A stretch of DNA of 64,000 nt from Psychroflexus gondwanensis ACAM 44 (GTDB lineage Bacteria; Bacteroidota; Bacteroidia; Flavobacteriales; Flavobacteriaceae). The DNA is taken from positions 186,001 to 250,000 of the forward strand of contig NZ_APLF01000009.1 of the NCBI RefSeq assembly GCF_000355905.1, written 5' to 3'. How positions within the stretch are numbered: position 1 is the stretch's first letter; each line of letters starts with the position of its first letter. A program made the position numbers and the translations under genes. The notes under the pieces are model-generated. The model ran no database searches, was not told where the DNA came from, and saw nothing but the letters and a program-made list of their open reading frames with translations. Shown piece after piece: positions 2,784-22,327 of the stretch.

Positions 2784-3762
2784 AGGGAAAAACACCTCTA
2801 CTGTAGAATATCTGTCAAATCAGTTTGAGGGAGAGGGCTATAAAGTCGTTTCAGCATCAAGTCAAACCAATCCCGTCTTGAGGTTGCTGGTGATGCTTGG
2901 TCAAGTGATAGTTCAAGCTTCAAAAACCGATGTTTTACTTATAGATACCTATAGCACGTCCGCTTTTTGGTACGCTTATGTCAGTAGTCGATTGGCTTTT
3001 TTTTTAAAGTTAGATTATATCCCCATTTTACACGGCGGTGATCTCCCTAAACGACTTAAAAGTCATCCCCAGCTTTGCCAAAGGCTATTTGGAAATGCTA
3101 AAGTCAATGTAGCGCCCTCTGCTTATTTGTTACAGGAGTTTAAAAACGCAGGTTACACCAACCTTACCTATATTCCAAACACCATTAAGCTGGACCAGTA
3201 TAAGTTTAAAAAACGCCAAGAGCTTCAACCTCACCTTTTATGGGTTCGGTCTTTTGCCCACTTATATAATCCCCTCTTAGCGCTTCAGGTTTTAAAAGAG
3301 TTGCGGTTCACTTATCCAAAGGTGAGGCTCAGTATGGTAGGCCCTTTTAAAGACGATTCCATAGAGGAGTGTAAAGCCTTCGCCAAAGAACATAAGTTAC
3401 CAGTGACTTTTACTGGAGGAATGAAAAAGAAAGACTGGCTCCAATACGCCCAAGATTTTGATGTGTTTATCAATACCACCAATGTCGACAACACTCCCGT
3501 AAGTGTGATCGAAGCCATGGCCTTAGGCTTACCTGTGGTCTCCACCAATGTGGGAGGACTGCCTTATCTCCTAGATCATGAAAAAGAGGCTTTGTTGGTA
3601 TCCCCTGGACATGTAGACGAATTCACCCAAGCGATTATCCGTCTGTTGGAAGATCCAAGTTTAGCTCAGCAGCTCTCTTTGCAAGGCCGTAAAAAAGTCG
3701 AGCACTTCGATTGGGAAGTGGTGAAACATCAGTGGTTTGAAGTCATTAGTGGTGAGAGGTGA
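2713..3762 (+). CDS. Glycosyltransferase, GT4 family
   Basis: About 349 residues if translation begins at the ATG at 2713, which overlaps the ligase gene by 71 bases. An upstream in-frame start would only add residues read out of frame from the ligase's last transmembrane segment. The N-terminal lobe has YLGNKLSRKGKNTSTVEYL, the usual opening of a GT-B glycosyltransferase that grips the acceptor. The C-terminal lobe has PVSVIEAMALGLPVVSTNVG, the E-x7-E nucleotide-sugar site. It probably builds the same polysaccharide as its neighbours. The last four residues (SGER) and the stop codon fall in AGTGGTGAGAGGTGA, which is already the beginning of the adjoining tandem repeat tract, so the natural C-terminus may have been altered by repeat growth. 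Confidence 0.85.
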   Translation: MRNKNDPKPNPKRLLYLGNKLSRKGKNTSTVEYLSNQFEGEGYKVVSASSQTNPVLRLLVMLGQVIVQASKTDVLLIDTYSTSAFWYAYVSSRLAFFLKLDYIPILHGGDLPKRLKSHPQLCQRLFGNAKVNVAPSAYLLQEFKNAGYTNLTYIPNTIKLDQYKFKKRQELQPHLLWVRSFAHLYNPLLALQVLKELRFTYPKVRLSMVGPFKDDSIEECKAFAKEHKLPVTFTGGMKKKDWLQYAQDFDVFINTTNVDNTPVSVIEAMALGLPVVSTNVGGLPYLLDHEKEALLVSPGHVDEFTQAIIRLLEDPSLAQQLSLQGRKKVEHFDWEVVKHQWFEVISGER

Positions 3763-3883
3763 GAGGTGAGTGGTGAGTAGTGGATTAGTATAGTGGTGTA
3801 GTTGTGTAGTAGTGAGTTGTGAGAGGTGAGTTGTGTGTTCTCCGTTGTCCGTTATCTGTTGTCAGTCTGTGGTGAGTGGTGAA

Positions 3884-3929
3884 CCGGTGGCTGAGTGATT
3901 TTTTTTTTGAAAAATTGTATCGAAGCCAC
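3884..3929 (+). repeat. Repeat family B, exemplar copy
   Basis: A roughly 45-base unit that folds as a two-part hairpin: outer GTGGCT/AGCCAC and inner ATTTTTC/GAAAAAT around a TTTT loop (best seen at 5633 and 9323). Copies start at about 3884, 5425, 5633, 9094, 9323, 10143 and 10570. Nearly all follow a GT-rich tract ending in GTGAACCG and are followed by family A or family C. Confidence 0.8.
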
Positions 3930-3937
3930 ATTTAAAT

Positions 3938-3992
3938 GTCAGTTCGAGTGATGGGTTTGTGGCGATAGACCAAAGCCATTGTATCGAGAACT
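3938..3992 (+). repeat. Repeat family A, exemplar copy
   Basis: A 55-base unit, nearly invariant in seven full copies: 3938, 4192, 4512, 4810, 5477, 9377 and 9486, with a 3'-half copy at about 10015–10043. It is an imperfect inverted repeat: GTTC…GAAC at the ends and GGTTT/AGACC inside, with the loop GTGGCGAT. The loop shares GGCGAT with the otherwise unrelated S-element hairpin. Similar short dispersed inverted repeats are known in flavobacterial intergenic regions; this exact unit is described from the sequence only. Confidence 0.8.
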
Positions 3993-4093
3993 AGACTAGG
4001 CCTAAGGCTGGTAATAGTTGTGAGTGGTGAGTGTTTTCTGTTGTCTGTTATCAGTCTGTCTGTCTGTGGTTAAGTAGTATAGTGGTGACTGTG

Positions 4094-4864
4094 GACTGTA
4101 GACTGATGACTGTGAACTGGTTGACTGGTAGACCGGTGAACTGGCAACTGATAACTGTGAACTGTGGACTGTCGACTAGTAAATAGTTCCTGTCAGTTCG
4201 AGTGATGGATTTGTGGCGATAGACCAAAGCCATTGTATCGAGAACTCGATTAAGCCTAAGGGAGCTTATTAGTGGTTAGTATAATGGTGTAATCGTATAG
4301 TGGTGTAGTAGTGTAATGGTTTAGTAGTGAGTGGTGAGAGGTGAGTTGTGTGTTTTCTGTTTTCTGTTGTCAGTCTGTGGTGAAGTAATATACTGGTTTA
4401 GTAGTATAGTGGTGACTGTAGACTGATGACTGTGAACTGGTTGACTGGTAGACCGGTGAACTGGCAACTGATAACTGTGAACTGTGGACTGTCGACTAGT
4501 AAATAGTTCCTGTCAGTTCGAGTGATGGGTTTGTGGCGATAGACCAAAGCCATTGTATCGAGAACTTGTTTAAGCCTAAGGGAGCTATTAGAGGTGAGTG
4601 GTGGGTTGTGAACTGGTGTAATAGTGTAATGGTGTAGTAGTGAGTGGTGAGTGGTGTGTTCTCCGTTGTCCGTTGTCTGTTGTCAGTCTGTGGTAGACTG
4701 GTTGACTGGCTACTGATAACTGTGGACTGGTAAACTGGTTGACTGGTAGACCGGTGAACTGTCAACTGATAACTGTGAACTGTGGACTGTCGACTAGTAA
4801 ATAGTTCCTGTCAGTTCGAGTGATGGGTTTGTGGCGATAGACCAAAGCCATTGTATCGAGAACT
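4094..4864 (+). repeat. Higher-order tandem array ending in family A
   Basis: A long unit made of a GT-rich tract plus TAAATAGTTCCT plus family A repeats three times. The stretch 4096–4246 recurs almost unchanged at 4416–4566 (offset 320) and its second half recurs ending at 4864 (offset 298). This points to unequal crossing-over or replication slippage at the scale of about 300 bases. Confidence 0.8.
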
Positions 4865-4909
4865 CGATTGAGCAGCTAACATTAGACCACCTCTCAACAG
4901 AAAGAAAAC

Positions 4910-5084
4910 GGCCTACGAAAAGAGGGCGTAAAAATTAAAGTGAAGGTGTCGCAAAATTTTAGACTGTTTGAGACCGACTTTAGGAGGTTGAGTTTCTAAA
5001 ATTTAGACATCAAACGTAAATTTTAGACTGAAGTTCGTAAGCCTAGTCTTTTTTGTTTCTTTTTTGGGCGATGCAAAAAAGAAA
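4910..5084 (+). repeat. S element, core type G, copy 1
   Basis: Starts GGCCTACGAA (4910) and its core ends TTCGTAAGCC (5043); these arms pair 9 of 10. Inside, AAATTTTAGA (4954 and again 5018) flanks its exact complement TCTAAAATTT (4995), allowing two alternative helices. After the core, a perfect 11-bp hairpin TTTCTTTTTTG/CAAAAAAGAAA (5056–5084) has the loop GGCGATG. A near-identical copy is at 6609. Function unknown. Confidence 0.75.
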
Positions 5085-5134
5085 GAGAATAGAAATTCTA
5101 TCTAAAACTTAAATAAGGAGATACACTTAAAAAG

Positions 5135-5202
5135 ATTCCGCATCGCGCTATCGCTTGCACGGAATGAAGAGATTCCGCATCTCGCTATCGCTTGCACGGA
5201 AT
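5135..5202 (+). repeat. Repeat family F, tandem pair
   Basis: Two 31-base copies (5135–5165 and 5172–5202) of a unit beginning ATTCCG and ending CGGAAT, separated by six bases. Other copies: 5994 (3' truncated), 7061–7091, 9280–9310 and 10492–10522. The terminal stem is 6–8 bp, longest in the copies at 9280 and 10492 (ATTCCGTA/TACGGAAT). The copy at 7061 sits just past the DUF4920 stop and could act as its terminator. Confidence 0.75.
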
Positions 5203-5253
5203 GAAGAGAATAGAAATGTTATAGAGGCATGGACTAAGCACCTAACATTAAAG

Positions 5254-5320
5254 CACTTCTCGATACAATTTTCTATCGAAAATCACCTGCCTTCCAAGGT
5301 GCGCAGGCAGGCTCGAAGTG
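5254..5320 (+). repeat. Repeat family E with nested palindrome
   Basis: The basic E unit (41 bases, clean at 5555–5595 and 9202–9242) has ends CACTTC/GAAGTG and an inner helix ATTTTC/GAAAAT around TATC. In this copy a palindrome CCTGCCT…AGGCAGG (about 5286–5311) is inserted after AAAATCAC. The same insertion, with changes, is in the copies at 6832 and 9820; the copies at 5555, 6458 and 9202 lack it. Confidence 0.75.
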
Positions 5321-5762
5321 ACAAGTGTCGTGAGTGGTTGGCTGGTAGACTGGTGGACAGGTGACTGTAGACTGTAGACTGATGACTGTGAACTGGTAGA
5401 CTGGTTGACTGGTTGACTGGTGAACCGGTGGCTGAGTGATTTTTTTTTGAAAATTGTATCGAAGCCACATTTAAACGTCAGTTCGAGTGATGGGTTTGTG
5501 TCGATAGACCAAAACCATTGTATCGAGAACTCGATTGAGTACCTAACATTAAAGCACTTCTCGATACAATTTTCTATCGAAAATCACTCGAAGTGACAAG
5601 TGTCGTGAGTGGTTGGCTGGTAAACTGGTGAACCGGTGGCTGAGTGATTTTTCTTTTGAAAAATTGTATCGAAGCCACATTAAGACACGTCATTTCATAT
5701 TTTAAATTTCAAAATTGACAATTCAAATTTTTATGAAAACGGTCACTTGATAGTTAGAAAAC

Positions 5763-5935
5763 GGCCTACTTTTTATGGAGGTTAGAAAACAAAAAAGTGG
5801 TGAAGAAAGGATAAAGGAGCAAAGCACTAGTGAAACGGTTTGCTTTGCGTGGGGGAACCGCTTTTGTAGTTTTCAAAGACATAAAAATAAGCCTAGTCCT
5901 TTTTGGTTACTTTTTACGGCGATGGTAAAAAGTAA
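5763..5935 (+). repeat. S element, core type D, copy 1 (candidate pseudoknot)
   Basis: Left arm GGCCTACTTTTTATG (5763) pairs with CATAAAAATAAGCC (5880–5893) apart from one mismatch and one bulge. The core holds GCAAAGCA (5819–5826)/TGCTTTGC (5841–5848), 8 bp, whose loop contains CGGTT (5836–5840) complementary to AACCG (5856–5860): a textbook H-type pseudoknot layout. The hairpin TTACTTTTTAC–GGCGATG–GTAAAAAGTAA follows at 5907–5935. An open frame of 60 codons runs through it but is probably incidental. Confidence 0.7.
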
Positions 5936-6224
5936 TGAAAGCATAAATTTTATCTAGAGTTTAAATAAGGTGATACACTTGAAGTCTAAACAGATTCCGT
6001 ATCGCGCTATCGCGTAGGGGGTGAACTTGTGTAATAGTATAATGGTGTATTAGTATAGTGGTGTAGTAGTATAATGGTGTAGTAGTGAGTGGTGAGTCTT
6101 GAGTGGTGTGTGGTTGGTTAGTATAGTGGTGTAGTAGTATAATGGAGGAACAGATTTCATATTTAAAATTTCAAAATTGACAATTCAAATTTTTATGAAA
6201 ACGGTCACTTGATAGTTAGAAAAC

Positions 6225-6407
6225 GGCCTACTTTTTATGGAGGTTAGAAAACAAAAAAGTGGTGAAGAAAGGATAAAGGAGCAAAGCACTAGTGAAACGG
6301 TTTGCTTTGCGTGGGGGAACCGCTTTTGTAGTTTTCAAAGACGTAAAAATAAGCCTAGTCTTTTTTGGTTCTCCCGACACCTCGGGATTCATCAATGGAA
6401 AAAATGA
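6225..6407 (+). repeat. S element, core type D, copy 2 (altered 3' hairpin)
   Basis: Core and pseudoknot arms are as in the copy at 5763. The right terminal arm reads CGTAAAAATAAGCC (6342–6355), turning one A–T pair into a G·T wobble so pairing is kept. The usual GGCGATG hairpin is replaced by a region with a perfect palindrome TCCCGA-CACC-TCGGGA (6372–6387). Confidence 0.65.
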
Positions 6408-6608
6408 ATGAAAATATAAATATTATGTAGACCTAGACTAATATCGTGACTTCAAATAACTTCTCGATACAATTTTCTATCGAAAATCACTCGAAGTGAC
6501 AAGTGAGTTGTGAGTCAAAATAATTATGAATTGATAATTAATAATTTTTAATTCAAAAAGTAGTTTTATTCAAGCTCAAAGTCTCAAGCTTCTCGATACA
6601 AAGAAAAC

Positions 6609-6783
6609 GGCCTACGAAAAGAGGGCGTAAAAATTAAAGTGAAGGTGTCGTAAAATTTTAGACTGTTTGAGACCGACTTTAGGAGGTTGAGTTTCTAAAA
6701 TTTAGACATCAAACGTAAATTTTAGACTGAAGTTCGTAAGCCTAGTCTTTTTTGTTTCTTTTTTGGGCGATGCAAAAAAGAAA
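6609..6783 (+). repeat. S element, core type G, copy 2
   Basis: Nearly identical to the copy at 4910 over its whole length: terminal arms 6609–6618 and 6733–6742, and hairpin with GGCGATG loop at 6755–6783. It is followed by the same ACTAAGCACCTAACATTAAA joining sequence and a family E copy. Confidence 0.75.
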
Positions 6784-7100
6784 GAGAACATAAATGTTAT
6801 AGAGACATGGACTAAGCACCTAACATTAAAGCTCTTCTCGATACAATTTTCTACCTAAAATCACCTCCCCTCCAAGGAACGAAGGCAGGCTCGAAGTGAC
6901 AAGTGTCGTGAGTGGTGAAGTAGTGTAATGGTGTAGTAGTATAGTAGTGAGTTGTTAGAGGTGAGTCGTGAACTGGTGACTGTAGACTGATGACTGAAGA
7001 CTGGTTGATAGGTAGACCGGTGAACTGGTAACTGTAGACCGATAACTGTGGACTGAAGAGATTCCGTATCGCGCTATCGCTTGCACGGAATTAAAATCAA

Positions 7101-7738: not shown

Positions 7739-8806
7739 ATGAATAGCACCGATATACGACTAGATATTACTAAAATCCCTCACACACGAATTGATGAAGT
7801 GGATTTTGAAAATCTCCAATTTGGGAAGCAGCACGCCGACCATATGATGTACTGCGACTACATCGATGGAGAATGGCAAACGCCAAAGATTGTTCCTTAT
7901 GGCCCAATGCAGTTTGAACCTTCGGCTAAGGTGTTTCATTACGGTCAGGCGGTATTTGAAGGTATGAAAGCCTTTAAAGATGAAGAGGATAAGGTTTGGT
8001 TATTTCGACCAGAGCAAAACTTTCAGCGGATCAATAAATCTTCCAAGCGGATGGCTATTCCAGAATTTCCTGAAAATCAGTTTTTCGCCTCTTTAGAAGC
8101 TTTATTGCAACTCGATAAGGACTGGGTGAAGAAAGGTGGAGGAAACTCCTTGTACATTCGCCCTTTTGTGATTGCTACAGAAAGTGGAGTATCAGCTTCT
8201 GAATCTAATCGGTACCGGTTTATGATCATTACCTGTCCTGCACAAGCGTATTATAACAAACCTATCAAAGTTATTTTTGCTCAAGACTATAGCCGCGCTG
8301 CCGATGGTGGTGTAGGTTTTGCAAAAGCTGCGGGGAATTATGGAGCGCAATTTTACCCTACTAAATTAGCCAAAGAGAAAGGCTTAGACCAAATTATTTG
8401 GACCGATGCGAGTTCTCATGAGTACTTAGAAGAAGCGGGGACGATGAACATCTTCTTTAGAGTAGGCGATAAACTTCTCACTGCACCAACCAATGATAGA
8501 ATTCTAGATGGGGTGACTCGTAAAAGTATCATCCAACTGGCCAAAGATAAAAACGTAGAAGTGGTTGTCGATAAAGTTTCTGTGAAACAAATCGTAAAGG
8601 CCGCTAAAAGTGGAGAATTAAAGGAGATTTTCGGAACAGGAACAGCAGCAACGGTCGTGAGAGTCGAAGGCTTTGAGCACGATGGCGTGTATTACGATCT
8701 TCCAGATATCGATGAGCCTTACGGCACCTTCTTTAAGAAAAACCTTCAGGACATTCAATATAACCGAGTAGAAGATCCTCACGGATGGACTCGTCAAGTG
8801 ATATAA
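7739..8806 (+). CDS. ilvE: Branched-chain amino acid aminotransferase
   Basis: A 355-residue PLP-dependent fold-type IV aminotransferase that transfers the amino group between glutamate and the keto acids of leucine, isoleucine and valine. Diagnostic segments are FHYGQAVFEGMKAF (about residues 66–79), FAKAAGNYGAQFYPT with the PLP-binding Lys196, and EYLEEAGTMNIFF (about 223–235). The arrangement is that of the larger BCAT group found in Bacteroidetes, and the length is normal. The gene is monocistronic: it has its own −7 box and is followed by a 10-bp perfect terminator stem. It sits alone between two repeat arrays, away from other branched-chain pathway genes. Confidence 0.93.
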   Translation: MNSTDIRLDITKIPHTRIDEVDFENLQFGKQHADHMMYCDYIDGEWQTPKIVPYGPMQFEPSAKVFHYGQAVFEGMKAFKDEEDKVWLFRPEQNFQRINKSSKRMAIPEFPENQFFASLEALLQLDKDWVKKGGGNSLYIRPFVIATESGVSASESNRYRFMIITCPAQAYYNKPIKVIFAQDYSRAADGGVGFAKAAGNYGAQFYPTKLAKEKGLDQIIWTDASSHEYLEEAGTMNIFFRVGDKLLTAPTNDRILDGVTRKSIIQLAKDKNVEVVVDKVSVKQIVKAAKSGELKEIFGTGTAATVVRVEGFEHDGVYYDLPDIDEPYGTFFKKNLQDIQYNRVEDPHGWTRQVI

Positions 8807-8858: not shown

Positions 8859-9595
8859 GATTTACATACTAATGGGGTAGTAGTATAGTAGTGAGAGGTG
8901 AGTGGAGAGTAGTGAGTGGTGAGTCGTGAGACGTGAGTGGTGGATTAGTATAGTGGTGTAGTTGTGTAGTAGTGAGTTGTGAGAGGTGAGAGGTGAGTCG
9001 AGAACTGGTGAACTGGTAGACTGGTGAACTGGTGACTGATGACTGTAGACTGATAACTGTGGACTGGTGAACTGGTAGACTGGTGACTGTGAACTGGTGG
9101 CTGAGTGATTTTTCTTTTGAAAAATTGTATCGAAGCCAGGTTAAGACTGGTCATTTCATATTTAAAATTTCAAAATTGATAATTCAAATTTTTATGAAAA
9201 GCACTTCTCGATACAATTTTCTATCGAAAATCACTCGAAGTGACATAACGTATTCAAGCTGAGTACACCACCTAAACAGATTCCGTATCACGCTATCGCT
9301 TGTACGGAATGACAAGCGTGAACCGGTGGCTGAGTGATTTTTCTTTTGAAAAATTGTATCGAAGCCACATTTAAATGTCAGTTCGAGTGATGGGTTTGTG
9401 GCGATAGACCAAAGCCATTGTATCGAGAACTCGACTAGGCCTAAGGCTGAAATTAGTTGTGAGTCGTGAGTGGTGAGTAGTTTCTGTCAGTTCGAGTGAT
9501 GGGTTTGTGGCGATAGACCAAAGCCATTGTATCGAGAACTCGATTGAGTACCTAACATTAGACCACCTCTCAACAGAAAGAAAACGGCCTACTTT

Positions 9596-9770
9596 TTATG
9601 GAGGTTAGAAAACAAAAAAGTGGTGAAGAAAGGATAAAGGAGCAAAGCACTAGTGAAACGGTTTGCTTTGCGTGGAGGAACCGCTTTTGTAGTTTTCAAA
9701 GACATAAAAATAAGCCTAGTCCCCAAGGCTTTGGGGATTGGTTACTTTTTACGGCGATGGTAAAAAGTAA
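9596..9770 (+). repeat. S element, core type D, copy 3 (with inserted palindrome)
   Basis: Terminal arms at 9596–9610 and 9703–9716, with pseudoknot arms conserved; one G-to-A change falls in the unpaired linker. Between the core and the GGCGATG hairpin (9742–9770) a perfect palindrome CCCCAA-GGCT-TTGGGG (9721–9736) has been inserted, absent from the copy at 5763. Confidence 0.7.
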
Positions 9771-10310
9771 TGAAAGCATAAATGTTACAGAGAAATCGAC
9801 CAATCTCATGGCTTAAAAGCACTTCTCGATACAATTTTCTTTCGAAAATCACCTGCCTTCCAAGGAACGCAAGCAGGCTCGAAGTGACAGGTATCGTGAG
9901 TGGTGAAGTAGTGTAATGGTTTAGTAGTGAGTGGTGAGACGTGAGTGGTGAGTCGTGAGTGGTAAAATAGTAGACTGGTGAACTGGTAGACCGGTGAACT
10001 GGCGACTGACGACTGATAGACCAAAACCATTGTATCGAGAACTTGATTAAGCCTAAAGGAGCTATTAGTGGTGAGTGGTGAGACGTGAGTGGTGTGTTCT
10101 CCGTTGTCCGTTATCTGTTGTCAGTCTGTGGTGAGTGGTGAACCGGTGGCTGAGTGATTTTTCTTTTGAAAAATTGTATCGAAGCCACATTTAGACTGGT
10201 CATTTCATATTTAAAATTTCAAAATTTCAAAATTGATAATTAAGAATTTTTAATTCAAAAAGTGGTTTTATTCAAGCTCAAGATGGAAAGCTTCTCAACA
10301 GAAAGAAAAC

Positions 10311-10410
10311 GGCCTACGAAAAGAGGTCGTAAAAATTAAATTGAAGTTCGTAAGCCTAGTCCCCAAGGCTTTGGGGATTGGTTCTCCCGACACCTCGGGA
10401 TTCATCAATG
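10311..10410 (+). repeat. S element, core type G, internally deleted copy
   Basis: The terminal arms GGCCTACGAA (10311) and TTCGTAAGCC (10347–10356) are kept, but most of the core is gone, leaving a 46-base stem-loop. It is followed by the CCCCAAGGCTTTGGGG palindrome (10361–10376) and then the TCCCGA/TCGGGA palindrome (about 10385–10400) that also replaces the hairpin at 6372. Confidence 0.65.
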
Positions 10411-10854
10411 GAAAAAATGAATGAAAACACTAATTCTTTCTAAATCCTAGATAAAAAATACATCTTCAAGCTGAGTACACCACCTAAACAGATTCCGTAT
10501 CACGCTATCGCTTGTACGGAATGAAGGGATCTCTCGTCACTGCGTTTCCCTCGAGATGACAAGGGTGAACCGGTGGCTGAGTGATTTTTCTTTTGAAAAA
10601 TTGTATCGAAGCCACATTTTAGACTGGTCATTTCATATTTAAAATTTCAAAATTGACAATTCAAATTTTTATGACAATGCCACATTAAGGTAACAACTAT
10701 TGAAGATCTCTTAAGCTACCACCGAAGCCTCGGGATTGTTTCAGCATCTAGTTGAAGTATAAAGTCTCATTTCAGCATCTAGTTAAAACCTTACTAAACC
10801 TTAGTTGAGGCTAAATTAATCTCGTTAAATTTAAGAAAAAACAAATTCAAGGGT

Positions 10855-20239: not shown

Positions 20240-20313
20240 GCCGATGTAGCTCAGCTGGCTAGAGCAGCTGATTTGTAATCAGCAGGTCGTGGGTTCGAGT
20301 CCCTCTATCGGCT
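20240..20313 (+). tRNA. tRNA-Thr (anticodon TGT)
   Basis: A cloverleaf can be drawn: acceptor GCCGATG/TATCGGC with a terminal G·T, D arm GCTC…GAGC, anticodon stem GCTGA/TCAGC around TTTGTAA (anticodon TGT), T arm GTGGG/CCCTC with TTCGAGT loop and one T·T mismatch. CCA is not encoded. First of four clustered tRNAs before tuf. Confidence 0.93.
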
Positions 20314-20524
20314 CAAAGTGTAGAATGGTGTTCATTTTATACTTTAATATTAAATGAGTTGAAGCGTTTAGGGCGAGAAGTTTATCCAGAACGAAGTTGA
20401 GGGGAGTCCCTCTATCGGCTCAAAGTGTAGAATGGTGTTCATTTTATACTTTAATATTAAATGAGTTGAAGCGTTTGGGACGAGAAGTTTATAGCGAAGT
20501 AGAGGTAAGTCCCTCTATCGGCTC
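20297..20524 (+). repeat. Tandem repeat carrying tRNA-Thr 3' ends
   Basis: The last 17 bases of tRNA-Thr plus about 90 downstream bases are repeated: the tRNA-end sequence AGTCCCTCTATCGGCTC occurs at 20298, 20405 and 20508 (periods 107 and 103). The spacers (AAAGTGTAGAATGGTGTTCA and onward) are nearly identical at first and diverge towards their ends. The second and third tRNA ends are not part of a complete tRNA. Confidence 0.85.
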
Positions 20525-20540
20525 TATTATCAGATTGTTT

Positions 20541-20622
<82 letters not shown>

Positions 20623-20672
20623 CAACCAAGTCGGATAACGTCAGACTTTGTATTGAAATATTGATTAAATAA

Positions 20673-20745
20673 GCGGAAGTAGCTCAGTTGGTAGAGCGTC
20701 AGCCTTCCAAGCTGAATGTCGCCGGTTCGAACCCGGTCTTCCGCT
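20673..20745 (+). tRNA. tRNA-Gly (anticodon TCC)
   Basis: 73 bases, with acceptor GCGGAAG/CTTCCGC and anticodon loop CTTCCAA giving TCC; T arm GCCGG/CCGGT region with TTCGAAC loop. Third tRNA of the cluster. Confidence 0.93.
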
Positions 20746-20775
20746 CTATTTTATTTCGATATCAAATATCTGAAT

Positions 20776-20847
20776 GCCGACGTAGCTCAGGGGTAGAGCG
20801 TTTCCTTGGTAAGGAAAAGGTCACGAGTTCAATTCTCGTCGTTGGCT
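20776..20847 (+). tRNA. tRNA-Thr (anticodon GGT)
   Basis: 72 bases, with acceptor GCCGACG/CGTTGGC, anticodon stem TTTCC/GGAAA around TTGGTAA giving GGT, and T arm ACGAG/CTCGT. It lies 93 bases before tuf and is probably cotranscribed with it. Confidence 0.93.
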
Positions 20848-20940
20848 CAATTTTAAAGTCTCAAAACTTGGTTTTGTTGGCTTTATACGTTGTTATTAAC
20901 ATTAACACTAATATATAACTAAGATTAAATAATTACTACT

Positions 20941-22128
20941 ATGGCAAAGAAGGAAAATTTTGATCGTTCCAAACCGCACCTTAATATAGGTACTATTGGT
21001 CACGTCGATCACGGAAAAACTACTCTTACAGCTGCTATTACTAAGGTTATGGCAGACGCTGGATATTCTGAAGCTAGTGCTTTTGATCAAATTGATAATG
21101 CACCTGAGGAAAAAGAGCGTGGTATTACCATCAACTCTTCTCACGTTGAATATCAAACAGCTAATCGTCACTATGCACACGTTGACTGTCCAGGTCACGC
21201 CGATTATGTGAAGAACATGGTTACAGGTGCTGCCCAAATGGACGGCGCTATTTTAGTAGTGGCTGCTACTGATGGTCCAATGCCACAAACTCGTGAGCAT
21301 ATCCTATTAGGACGTCAGGTGGGTATCCCTAGAATTGTTACTTTCTTAAACAAGGTTGACCTTGTTGATGATGAGGAGCTTTTGGAGCTTGTTGAAATGG
21401 AAGTGAGAGATTTGCTTTCTTTTTACGAATATGATGGAGATAATGCTCCTGTTATTTCAGGTTCAGCTCTTGGTGCTTTAGAAGGTGATGAGAAATGGAG
21501 CAAAACTGTTATAGATCTTATGGAAGCAGTTGATGACTACATTGAATTACCAGAAAGAGATGTTGAAAAAGATTTCTTAATGCCTATCGAAGATGTATTC
21601 TCAATCACAGGTCGTGGTACTGTTGCAACTGGTCGTATTGAAACTGGTGTTGCAAATACTGGTGATGCTGTAGAGATTAACGGTATGGGTGCTGAAAACT
21701 TAAAGTCAACAGTTACTGGAGTTGAAATGTTCCGTAAAATTCTTGATAGAGGTGAAGCAGGAGATAACGTTGGTATCTTGTTAAGAGGTATTGAGAAAAA
21801 CCAAATCTCTAGAGGTATGGTTATCGCAAAACCTGGTTCTGTTAAGCCACACGCTAAATTTAAAGCCGAGGTGTATATCCTAAAGAAAGAAGAAGGTGGA
21901 CGTCACACTCCATTCCACAATAACTACAGACCACAGTTCTACGTAAGAACAACAGATGTTACTGGTACAATCAACCTTCCTGAGGGAGTTGAAATGGTTA
22001 TGCCTGGTGATAACTTAACCATTACTGTAGACTTGATTCAAGCCATTGCCTTAAACGTAGGTTTAAGATTCGCTATCCGTGAGGGTGGACGTACAGTTGG
22101 TGCTGGTCAGGTTACTGAAATTATCTAA
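20941..22128 (+). CDS. tuf: Elongation factor Tu
   Basis: A 395-residue GTPase that delivers aminoacyl-tRNA to the ribosome. The G motifs are intact: GHVDHGKT (residues 20–27), [12 protein letters not shown] (about 81) and NKVDLVDD (about 137). Domains II and III are complete ([40 protein letters not shown], and the C-terminal [13 protein letters not shown]). It sits in the usual flavobacterial order between tRNA-Thr(GGT) and tRNA-Trp–secE. A strong hairpin follows. Codon choice is biased towards the frequent codons expected of a highly expressed gene. Confidence 0.98.
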
Positions 22129-22156
22129 TTCTTTTTTAAGAATAGATACAAATTTA

Positions 22157-22185
22157 GTTAAGGTGTCTCTTAGAGATACCTTAAC
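22157..22185 (+). terminator. Terminator after tuf
   Basis: GTTAAGGT…ACCTTAAC with an inner TCTC/GAGA helix, followed by TTTTT and a further T-rich stretch. It separates tuf from tRNA-Trp–secE. Confidence 0.75.
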
Positions 22186-22254
22186 TTTTTAAGTTTTCTT
22201 TTTTTAAGTGTATTTTATTTTGTTTCTTTGCACGCTTTAAAAAACGAATTATTT

Positions 22255-22327
22255 ACGGGTTTAGCTCAGTTGGTAGAGCACTGGTCTCCAAAACCAGGTG
22301 TCGGGAGTTCGAGCCTCTCAACCCGTG
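22255..22327 (+). tRNA. tRNA-Trp (anticodon CCA)
   Basis: 73 bases, with acceptor ACGGGTT/AACCCGT and discriminator G, anticodon stem CTGGT/ACCAG around CTCCAAA giving CCA, and T arm CGGGA…CTC with TTCGAGC. It precedes secE by 14 bases, as in other Bacteroidetes. Confidence 0.94.

Follow-up and report, generated by a model that had tools for sequence, protein, structure and literature searches.

On our best reading, the repeat that we call S element type D (type D below) is a non-autonomous, structure-dependent mobile repeat that acts as RNA or as single-stranded DNA. Three of its copies lie in the stretch analysed here, 64,000 nucleotides of the genome of Psychroflexus gondwanensis ACAM 44 (hereafter the window). 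We lean towards a more specific form of this reading: type D would be one core family within a dispersed non-autonomous repeat, and selection would act on the + strand as a single strand that folds, RNA being likelier than DNA. The covariation of its copies supports a core that forms one long nested imperfect hairpin with five helices, followed by a folded tail.

The D unit has a core of 131 bases and, behind it, a tail of roughly 40 bases; its features in the window are collected in Table 1. Fourteen copies of its 30-base hairpin stretch were found in the whole assembly (3.31 Mb, 62 contigs) with at most 3 mismatches allowed, and none in the reversed control. The surroundings, at 3750-7100 and 8880-10700, are a dense repeat mosaic of GTGAGTGG-type blocks, GACTGGTGAACTGG blocks, CTTCTCGATACAATTTTC...CACTCGAAGTGACA and GATTCCGTATCGCGCTATCGCTTGCACGGAATGA repeats.

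At gathering thresholds, Rfam 15 recovers five tRNAs only from the whole window; their genes lie within about 2.1 kb at 20240-22327. Under laxer settings, Rfam 15 was searched with four relatives, ten further loci and window 3700-7100; the three matches obtained scored far below their thresholds, and no known Rfam family scored above its gathering threshold in the stretches searched. A phage collection queried with window 5740-5960 returned no match.

Table 1. Positions of the repeat cores and of their parts in the window.
Feature	Position	Strand	Basis or remark
Type D core, copy 1	5763-5893	+	Fold, covariation
Helices of copy 1	5763-5765/5891-5893; 5770-5777/5880-5887; 5785-5790/5869-5874; 5793-5801/5857-5865; 5819-5826/5841-5848	+	Fold, covariation
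Apical loop CTAGTGAAACGGTT	5827-5840	+	Strongly conserved in Psychroflexus; holds the 5' arm of the H-type pseudoknot proposed earlier
Spacer CTAGTC	5893-5898	+	Its first base is also the final base of the closing stem; weak pairing of 5896-5898 (GTC) with the tail loop is possible (3 bp, one G.U)
Tail hairpin TTACTTTTTAC/GTAAAAAGTAA	5907-5935	+	Loop GGCGATG at 5918-5924
Type D core, copy 2	6225-6355	+	Tail palindrome CCCGACACCTCGGG at 6373-6386; tail loop ATCAATG at 6391-6397
Type D core, copy 3	9586-9716	+	Tail palindrome CCCCAAGGCTTTGGGG at 9721-9736; tail loop GGCGATG at 9753-9759
Type E core	4910-5043	+	Closing stem as in D (GGC/GCC), then the same kind of tail hairpin
Type E core, copy 2	6609-6742	+	Closing stem and tail in common with D, core different
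Short copy, same ends, little core	10311-10356	+	Its tail holds two small palindromes

Nested fold and strand polarity of the type D core

Minimum-energy folding and the alignment consensus give the same five helices, from the outermost to the innermost: GGC/GCC, TTTTTATG/CATAAAAA, GAAAAC/GTTTTC, AAAAGTGGT/ACCGCTTTT and GCAAAGCA/TGCTTTGC. An asymmetric, purine-rich internal loop of 17/8 bases precedes the innermost helix. The closing stem of the D core is of the form G-N-C/G-N-C, and across relatives it is found as GGC/GCC, GTC/GAC, GAC/GTC and GCC/GGC.

For the covariation analysis, 50 distinct D cores were kept among hits of at least 60 bits, with 29 skipped because they were duplicates, belonged to other core types or were D copies cut short or interrupted; L076:892-1058 was left out for its aberrant 3' half, which leaves 49 distinct Psychroflexus cores in alignment A2. 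Under the nested fold, 97.5% of the 1567 cells of this MAFFT alignment are paired, a value favoured by the derivation of the tested structure from the same sequences; the two-sided changes, present in 14 of 32 pairs (75 cells), are the stronger evidence. Helix 4 (AAAAGTGGT/ACCGCTTTT) carries them in six of its nine pairs. None of 500 shuffles scored as high, and with the partner slid by 1-3 columns at most 55.5% of cells were paired. Compensatory changes beyond both the shuffled and the slid controls are what a structured single-strand element should display. Across genera, alignment A3 (39 distinct rows, fitted to the covariance model) has two-sided changes in 25 of 32 pairs, over 247 cells.

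A preliminary description of the window had proposed an H-type pseudoknot in copy 1. Its complementarities are exact: GCAAAGCA at 5819-5826 and TGCTTTGC at 5841-5848 are reverse complements, as are CGGTT at 5836-5840 and AACCG at 5856-5860, and the two helices abut, with connecting loops of 9 and 7 bases. The arms are also intact in the other two window copies, the third of which starts at 9586 and not at 9596 as had been written, and the G-to-A difference among the copies does fall in an unpaired stretch. Dinucleotide shuffling of the 131-base core reproduced the arrangement of 8-bp and 5-bp arms in 3 of 2000 cases. With the 8-bp hairpin given, a 5-bp abutting arm arose in about 1.9% of 20000 shuffles of the loop and downstream bases, so the CGGTT:AACCG helix alone is only mildly unusual.

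The two halves of this proposal fare differently among the 49 Psychroflexus cores. The 8-bp helix covaries, with two-sided changes in five of its eight pairs and 98.0% of cells paired. The CGGTT:AACCG helix has no two-sided changes, and its 85.7% of paired cells equals the shuffled mean (85.4%, 146 of 500 shuffles as high). CGGTT is nearly invariant and AACCG drifts, for instance to AGCCA, ATTCA or AAACA; the first pair (columns 75/100) is broken in 19 of the 49 copies and that of columns 77/98 in 13. Mutations in one arm unmatched in the other are the very observation that the preliminary description had named as contradicting it. Furthermore, four of the five AACCG bases belong to the 3' strand of the covarying helix 4, so AACCG is unable to serve both helices. 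The H-type pseudoknot is perfect in the three window copies, and each pair of its CGGTT:AACCG helix is retained, G.U counted, in 30 to 49 of 49 copies, but as the conserved fold it is very improbable. The wider idea behind it, that of a structured single strand and not junk, is upheld by the covarying nested fold.

The consensus fold of the 49 cores differs between strands: it has 34 pairs and -23.9 kcal/mol on the + strand, but 10 pairs and -2.9 kcal/mol on the - strand. Taken singly, a copy can fold on both strands: -48.8 kcal/mol on the + strand (z -2.08, 7/200 shuffles as good) and -38.9 kcal/mol on the - strand (z -3.61, 0/200 as good). The one-strand consensus fold found for D is weaker in type E (-27.6 on the + strand versus -15.5 on the - strand, n=28) and not seen in type F (-38.1 versus -34.0, n=3 sequences). 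Among non-Watson-Crick cells, G.U outnumbers A.C by 94 to 5 in A2 and by 47 to 3 in A3, in a count that used the + strand structure under RNA rules, which favours G.U. These sequence comparisons favour the single-stranded + strand as the selected form, probably as RNA rather than one-strand DNA.

Tail contact and the cores on similar ends

Downstream of the closing stem follow, in order, a spacer, a T run and the tail hairpin. Spacer and hairpin loop make complementary pairs in many relatives, where spacers CTTGAT, CTTGAC and CTTGAA go with loops ATCAAG, GTCAAG and TTCAAG. We could parse 56 of 85 tails; many of the 29 unparsed ones hold palindromes, and in two of them (L212, L227) spacer and loop are complementary by eye.

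Spacer position 6 is complementary to loop position 1 in 50 of the 56 parsed tails (shuffled mean 24.8, 0/2000 as high). The same holds for 25 of 29 when one tail per genus and type is taken (mean 12.0, 0/2000 as high). Spacer position 5 and loop position 2 form 31 Watson-Crick and 12 G.U pairs in the 56 tails, against a shuffled mean of 20.3, and position 4 of the spacer hardly varies. The six spacer-loop failures are five tails with CTAGCG and GGC loops, and L219.

This covariation supports a pseudoknot other than the one first drawn and 3' of its span: in the wider family, spacer and tail loop would form a kissing pseudoknot. In the Psychroflexus and window copies the contact amounts to at most 3 pairs, CTAGTC with GGCGATG, one of them G.U, and the tail pseudoknot is therefore weak or partly lost in the window.

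Small palindromes, namely CCCCAAGGCTTTGGGG, CCCGACACCTCGGG/CCCGATAGCTATCGGG and CCTGCC...GGCAGG, lie in the tail T run or the tail hairpin in copies of several species. They are found in the window at 6373-6386, 9721-9736 and 10360-10400, and in many tails of loci L054-L093. Some copies (L059, L063, L077, L085, L086, L091, L092) have a module of about 54 bases (AAATCGAGGTACGAGATTCATGAACACTTAA...GGGTGAACTAAA) within the loop of the tail hairpin; in L081/L083 this module is located inside the outer stem.

Inspection and search reveal that similar closing stems and tails carry differing cores: D, E, F and one in Persicobacter. Type E, present twice in the window, and type F have the closing stem and tail in common with D, but not the core. 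The type E alignment (n=28) contains two-sided changes in 20 of 35 pairs. Type E is also numerous in genus g164, some copies standing in head-to-tail series (L155:1156-1335, L165 and other loci). On three plasmids of Persicobacter sp. JZB09 (Cytophagales), the tail follows another sequence that, by eye, starts with GGCC and ends with GCC; the core of L233 folds as a long nested hairpin, and the minimum-energy fold of L234 differs.

A tail pattern that requires spacer-loop complementarity and no stem was found in 30 of 395 genomes of the phylum, from 23 of 170 genera, with 0 in the reversed control among the matches listed; some single matches (e.g. G802, G810, G854) resemble chance. A stem of at least 9 bp, not demanded by the pattern, flanks the loop in 17 of 18 tail-selected loci, two of the 20 having been left out (L246, an already known D copy, and L242, a match in a long open frame). 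An upstream fold with a closing stem of the G-N-C type can be drawn for 15 of the 20 loci, which serves as illustration and not as a test because the start was chosen for best energy. From these sequences, the D element looks like one core of a larger chassis family in Bacteroidota.

Distribution, surroundings and mode of spread

An exact 23-base piece of the element occurs in nine stretches of named genomes, all of them Psychroflexus, and BLAST detects D copies in 10 of 27 Psychroflexus genomes, that of ACAM 44 included. A first covariance model (R1) matched 14 of 397 Flavobacteriaceae genomes, 11 of these in seven other genera. A rebuilt model (R2) matched 12 of 395 genomes of the order and added six genera and two families. 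By covariance model, relatives thus exist in 13 genera beyond Psychroflexus, from three Flavobacteriales families. The match counts for family and order are lower bounds, since filtering was made stricter in both scans and no more than 8 candidates per genome were scored. With strict filters as well, the core model matched only 4 of 395 genomes in the phylum sample, all Flavobacteriaceae. In some D copies of genus g164 (L139:1900-2059, L158:1501-1659, L226), the last helix has about 28 additional bases at its 5' arm.

Copies sit beside unrelated genes, with differing flanks. Outside Psychroflexus we scanned 115 of 119 neighbouring ORFs, the remaining four being those at L242 and L246. Among the families listed by Pfam and PADLOC (25 of 136 and 25 of 88), no neighbour gene recurs, and the largest of the 25 of 136 has 5 members; a lone transposase or reverse transcriptase may be hidden among the other families. 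The 97 ORFs near Psychroflexus copies fall, by BLAST clustering, into groups of at most 4. In four Psychroflexus genomes, D copies lie near one and the same gene, probably branched-chain-aminotransferase-like (window 7739-8806, L059, L086, L111, L113). Overlap with an open frame of at least 110 aa is found for 5 of 79 copies. In genus g164, several copies have about 20-25 bases of left flank in common, so the unit may sometimes be longer.

In the genome pair G453/G452, whose flanks are about 94-95% identical, we found no clean empty site; the whole repeat block after one conserved gene is rearranged. A target site duplication, which a MITE of a DDE transposon would have alongside terminal inverted repeats, could not be defined. 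In L190 compared with L202, from two genomes with flanks about 94-95% identical, the repeat block past the conserved gene is reordered and the D copy inverted. Movement is consequently inferred from dispersal.

For a non-autonomous mobile repeat of this kind, the spread would be the work of a trans-acting enzyme that grips the constant ends as a handle, in line with proposals for BOX or REP repeats. A second recognition part or a passenger would be the role of the variable core, and the gripped form might be RNA or an RNA-derived copy. We regard as rather improbable, at this stage, the boldest version of such a scheme, a widespread bacterial counterpart of SINEs. This non-coding RNA would combine a constant chassis, made of the closing stem and the 3' pseudoknot tail, with cores that can be exchanged, and a reverse transcriptase or another RNA-reading enzyme would copy it in trans through RNA.

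Instead, a Y1 (HUH) transposase that reads hairpins on one DNA strand might move the element in single-stranded DNA form, as proposed for REPs and RAYTs. This deserves serious attention, even if we judge it unlikely. The consensus hairpins are on one strand, the tails contain small palindromes, and Y1_Tnp exceeds its cut-off in 24 of 27 Psychroflexus genomes, comprising 10/10 of those with D versus 14/17 of those without. However, none of the five Y1_Tnp loci of the ACAM 44 genome (one below cut-off) has a D element within 1.5 kb, and in genome G003, with 8 element matches, the only Y1 match scores 41.7 bits and lies within an open frame of 1207 aa. By eye, the left flanks contain no strict target word, and the G.U excess is easier explained by RNA.

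A structured RNA serving the host, be it a 3' UTR stabiliser, a terminator or a small RNA, would account for a fold conserved across genera, for the T run behind the stem and for the orientation of copies between tandem genes: 17 are co-directed versus 4 outside Psychroflexus, with a smaller bias at D loci in Psychroflexus (17 versus 9). Yet the tail-selected loci exhibit no orientation bias (4 versus 4), and neighbour genes do not recur among the families listed. The element is multi-copy and clustered in repeat blocks, at median distances of 728.5 and 796 bases from the nearest frames of at least 110 aa in Psychroflexus, and 17 of the 27 Psychroflexus genomes, some incomplete, have no BLAST match. 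In our estimation a host-serving RNA, as opposed to a selfish repeat, is improbable.

A decayed or short protein-coding gene is scarcely credible: frame +0 is stop-free in 23 of 49 cores, but core lengths modulo 3 leave remainders 2, 1 and 0 in 31, 14 and 4 copies, the changes track the base pairing, a 38-residue frame of the minus strand had no tblastn match among plasmids at E up to 1, and inspection and search found no reading frame conserved inside the element.

Significance and comparison with known systems

One covariance model links copies in 14 Flavobacteriales genera to a single fold. Through its closing stem and tail, the D family appears to be connected with further families in other parts of Bacteroidota. 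Read as RNA, the fold would represent a sizeable class of dispersed structured RNA without a match in the Rfam searches made, and hunting for the tail-recognising enzyme would become a concrete experiment. Among the literature matches listed, no title or abstract start describes the repeat.

Guide RNAs of HEARO/IscB or TnpB are mobile-element RNAs that can occur without their own gene. The D element is similar to them in size; unlike them, it has no Rfam match in the stretches searched, and no such gene appears among the 25 of 136 neighbour families listed.

Bacteroidetes structured RNA motifs in Rfam include Flavo-1, 6S-flavo and others, and the GUCCY-hairpin is listed beside them without an Rfam number (PMC2864571). 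As a structured RNA candidate of the same phylum, the D element resembles Flavo-1 and 6S-flavo as they are outlined there; unlike these Rfam motifs, it gave no above-threshold match in the stretches searched. Flavobacterium psychrophilum has small RNAs, Rfp18 among them, that are described as folded and conserved in Flavobacteriaceae (PMC9723704), and by that description only, the D element, likewise folded and conserved within the same family, is comparable.

GTAG/CGTC REPs, in the outline given by their source, are 20-40 bp long, bear a tag at one end and are associated with RAYT transposases (PMC3733652). The D element has in common with them that both are dispersed palindromic intergenic repeats thought to be mobile. 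A unit of 131 bases with a tail of about 40 bases is, however, not a 20-40 bp palindrome tagged with GTAG/CGTC, as that outline defines them.

BOX, RUP and SPRITE of Streptococcus pneumoniae are small interspersed repeats whose transcripts are predicted to fold extensively (PMC3049150). BOX is modular (boxA, boxB, boxC), its middle is variable, and it is regarded as non-autonomous and parasitic (PMC3049150). The D element is likewise a small interspersed folded repeat, a likeness by description only. BOX, RUP and SPRITE are described in a few streptococci (PMC3049150); in contrast, hits of the D model come from 14 genera within a single order, and spacer and tail loop make a covarying contact.
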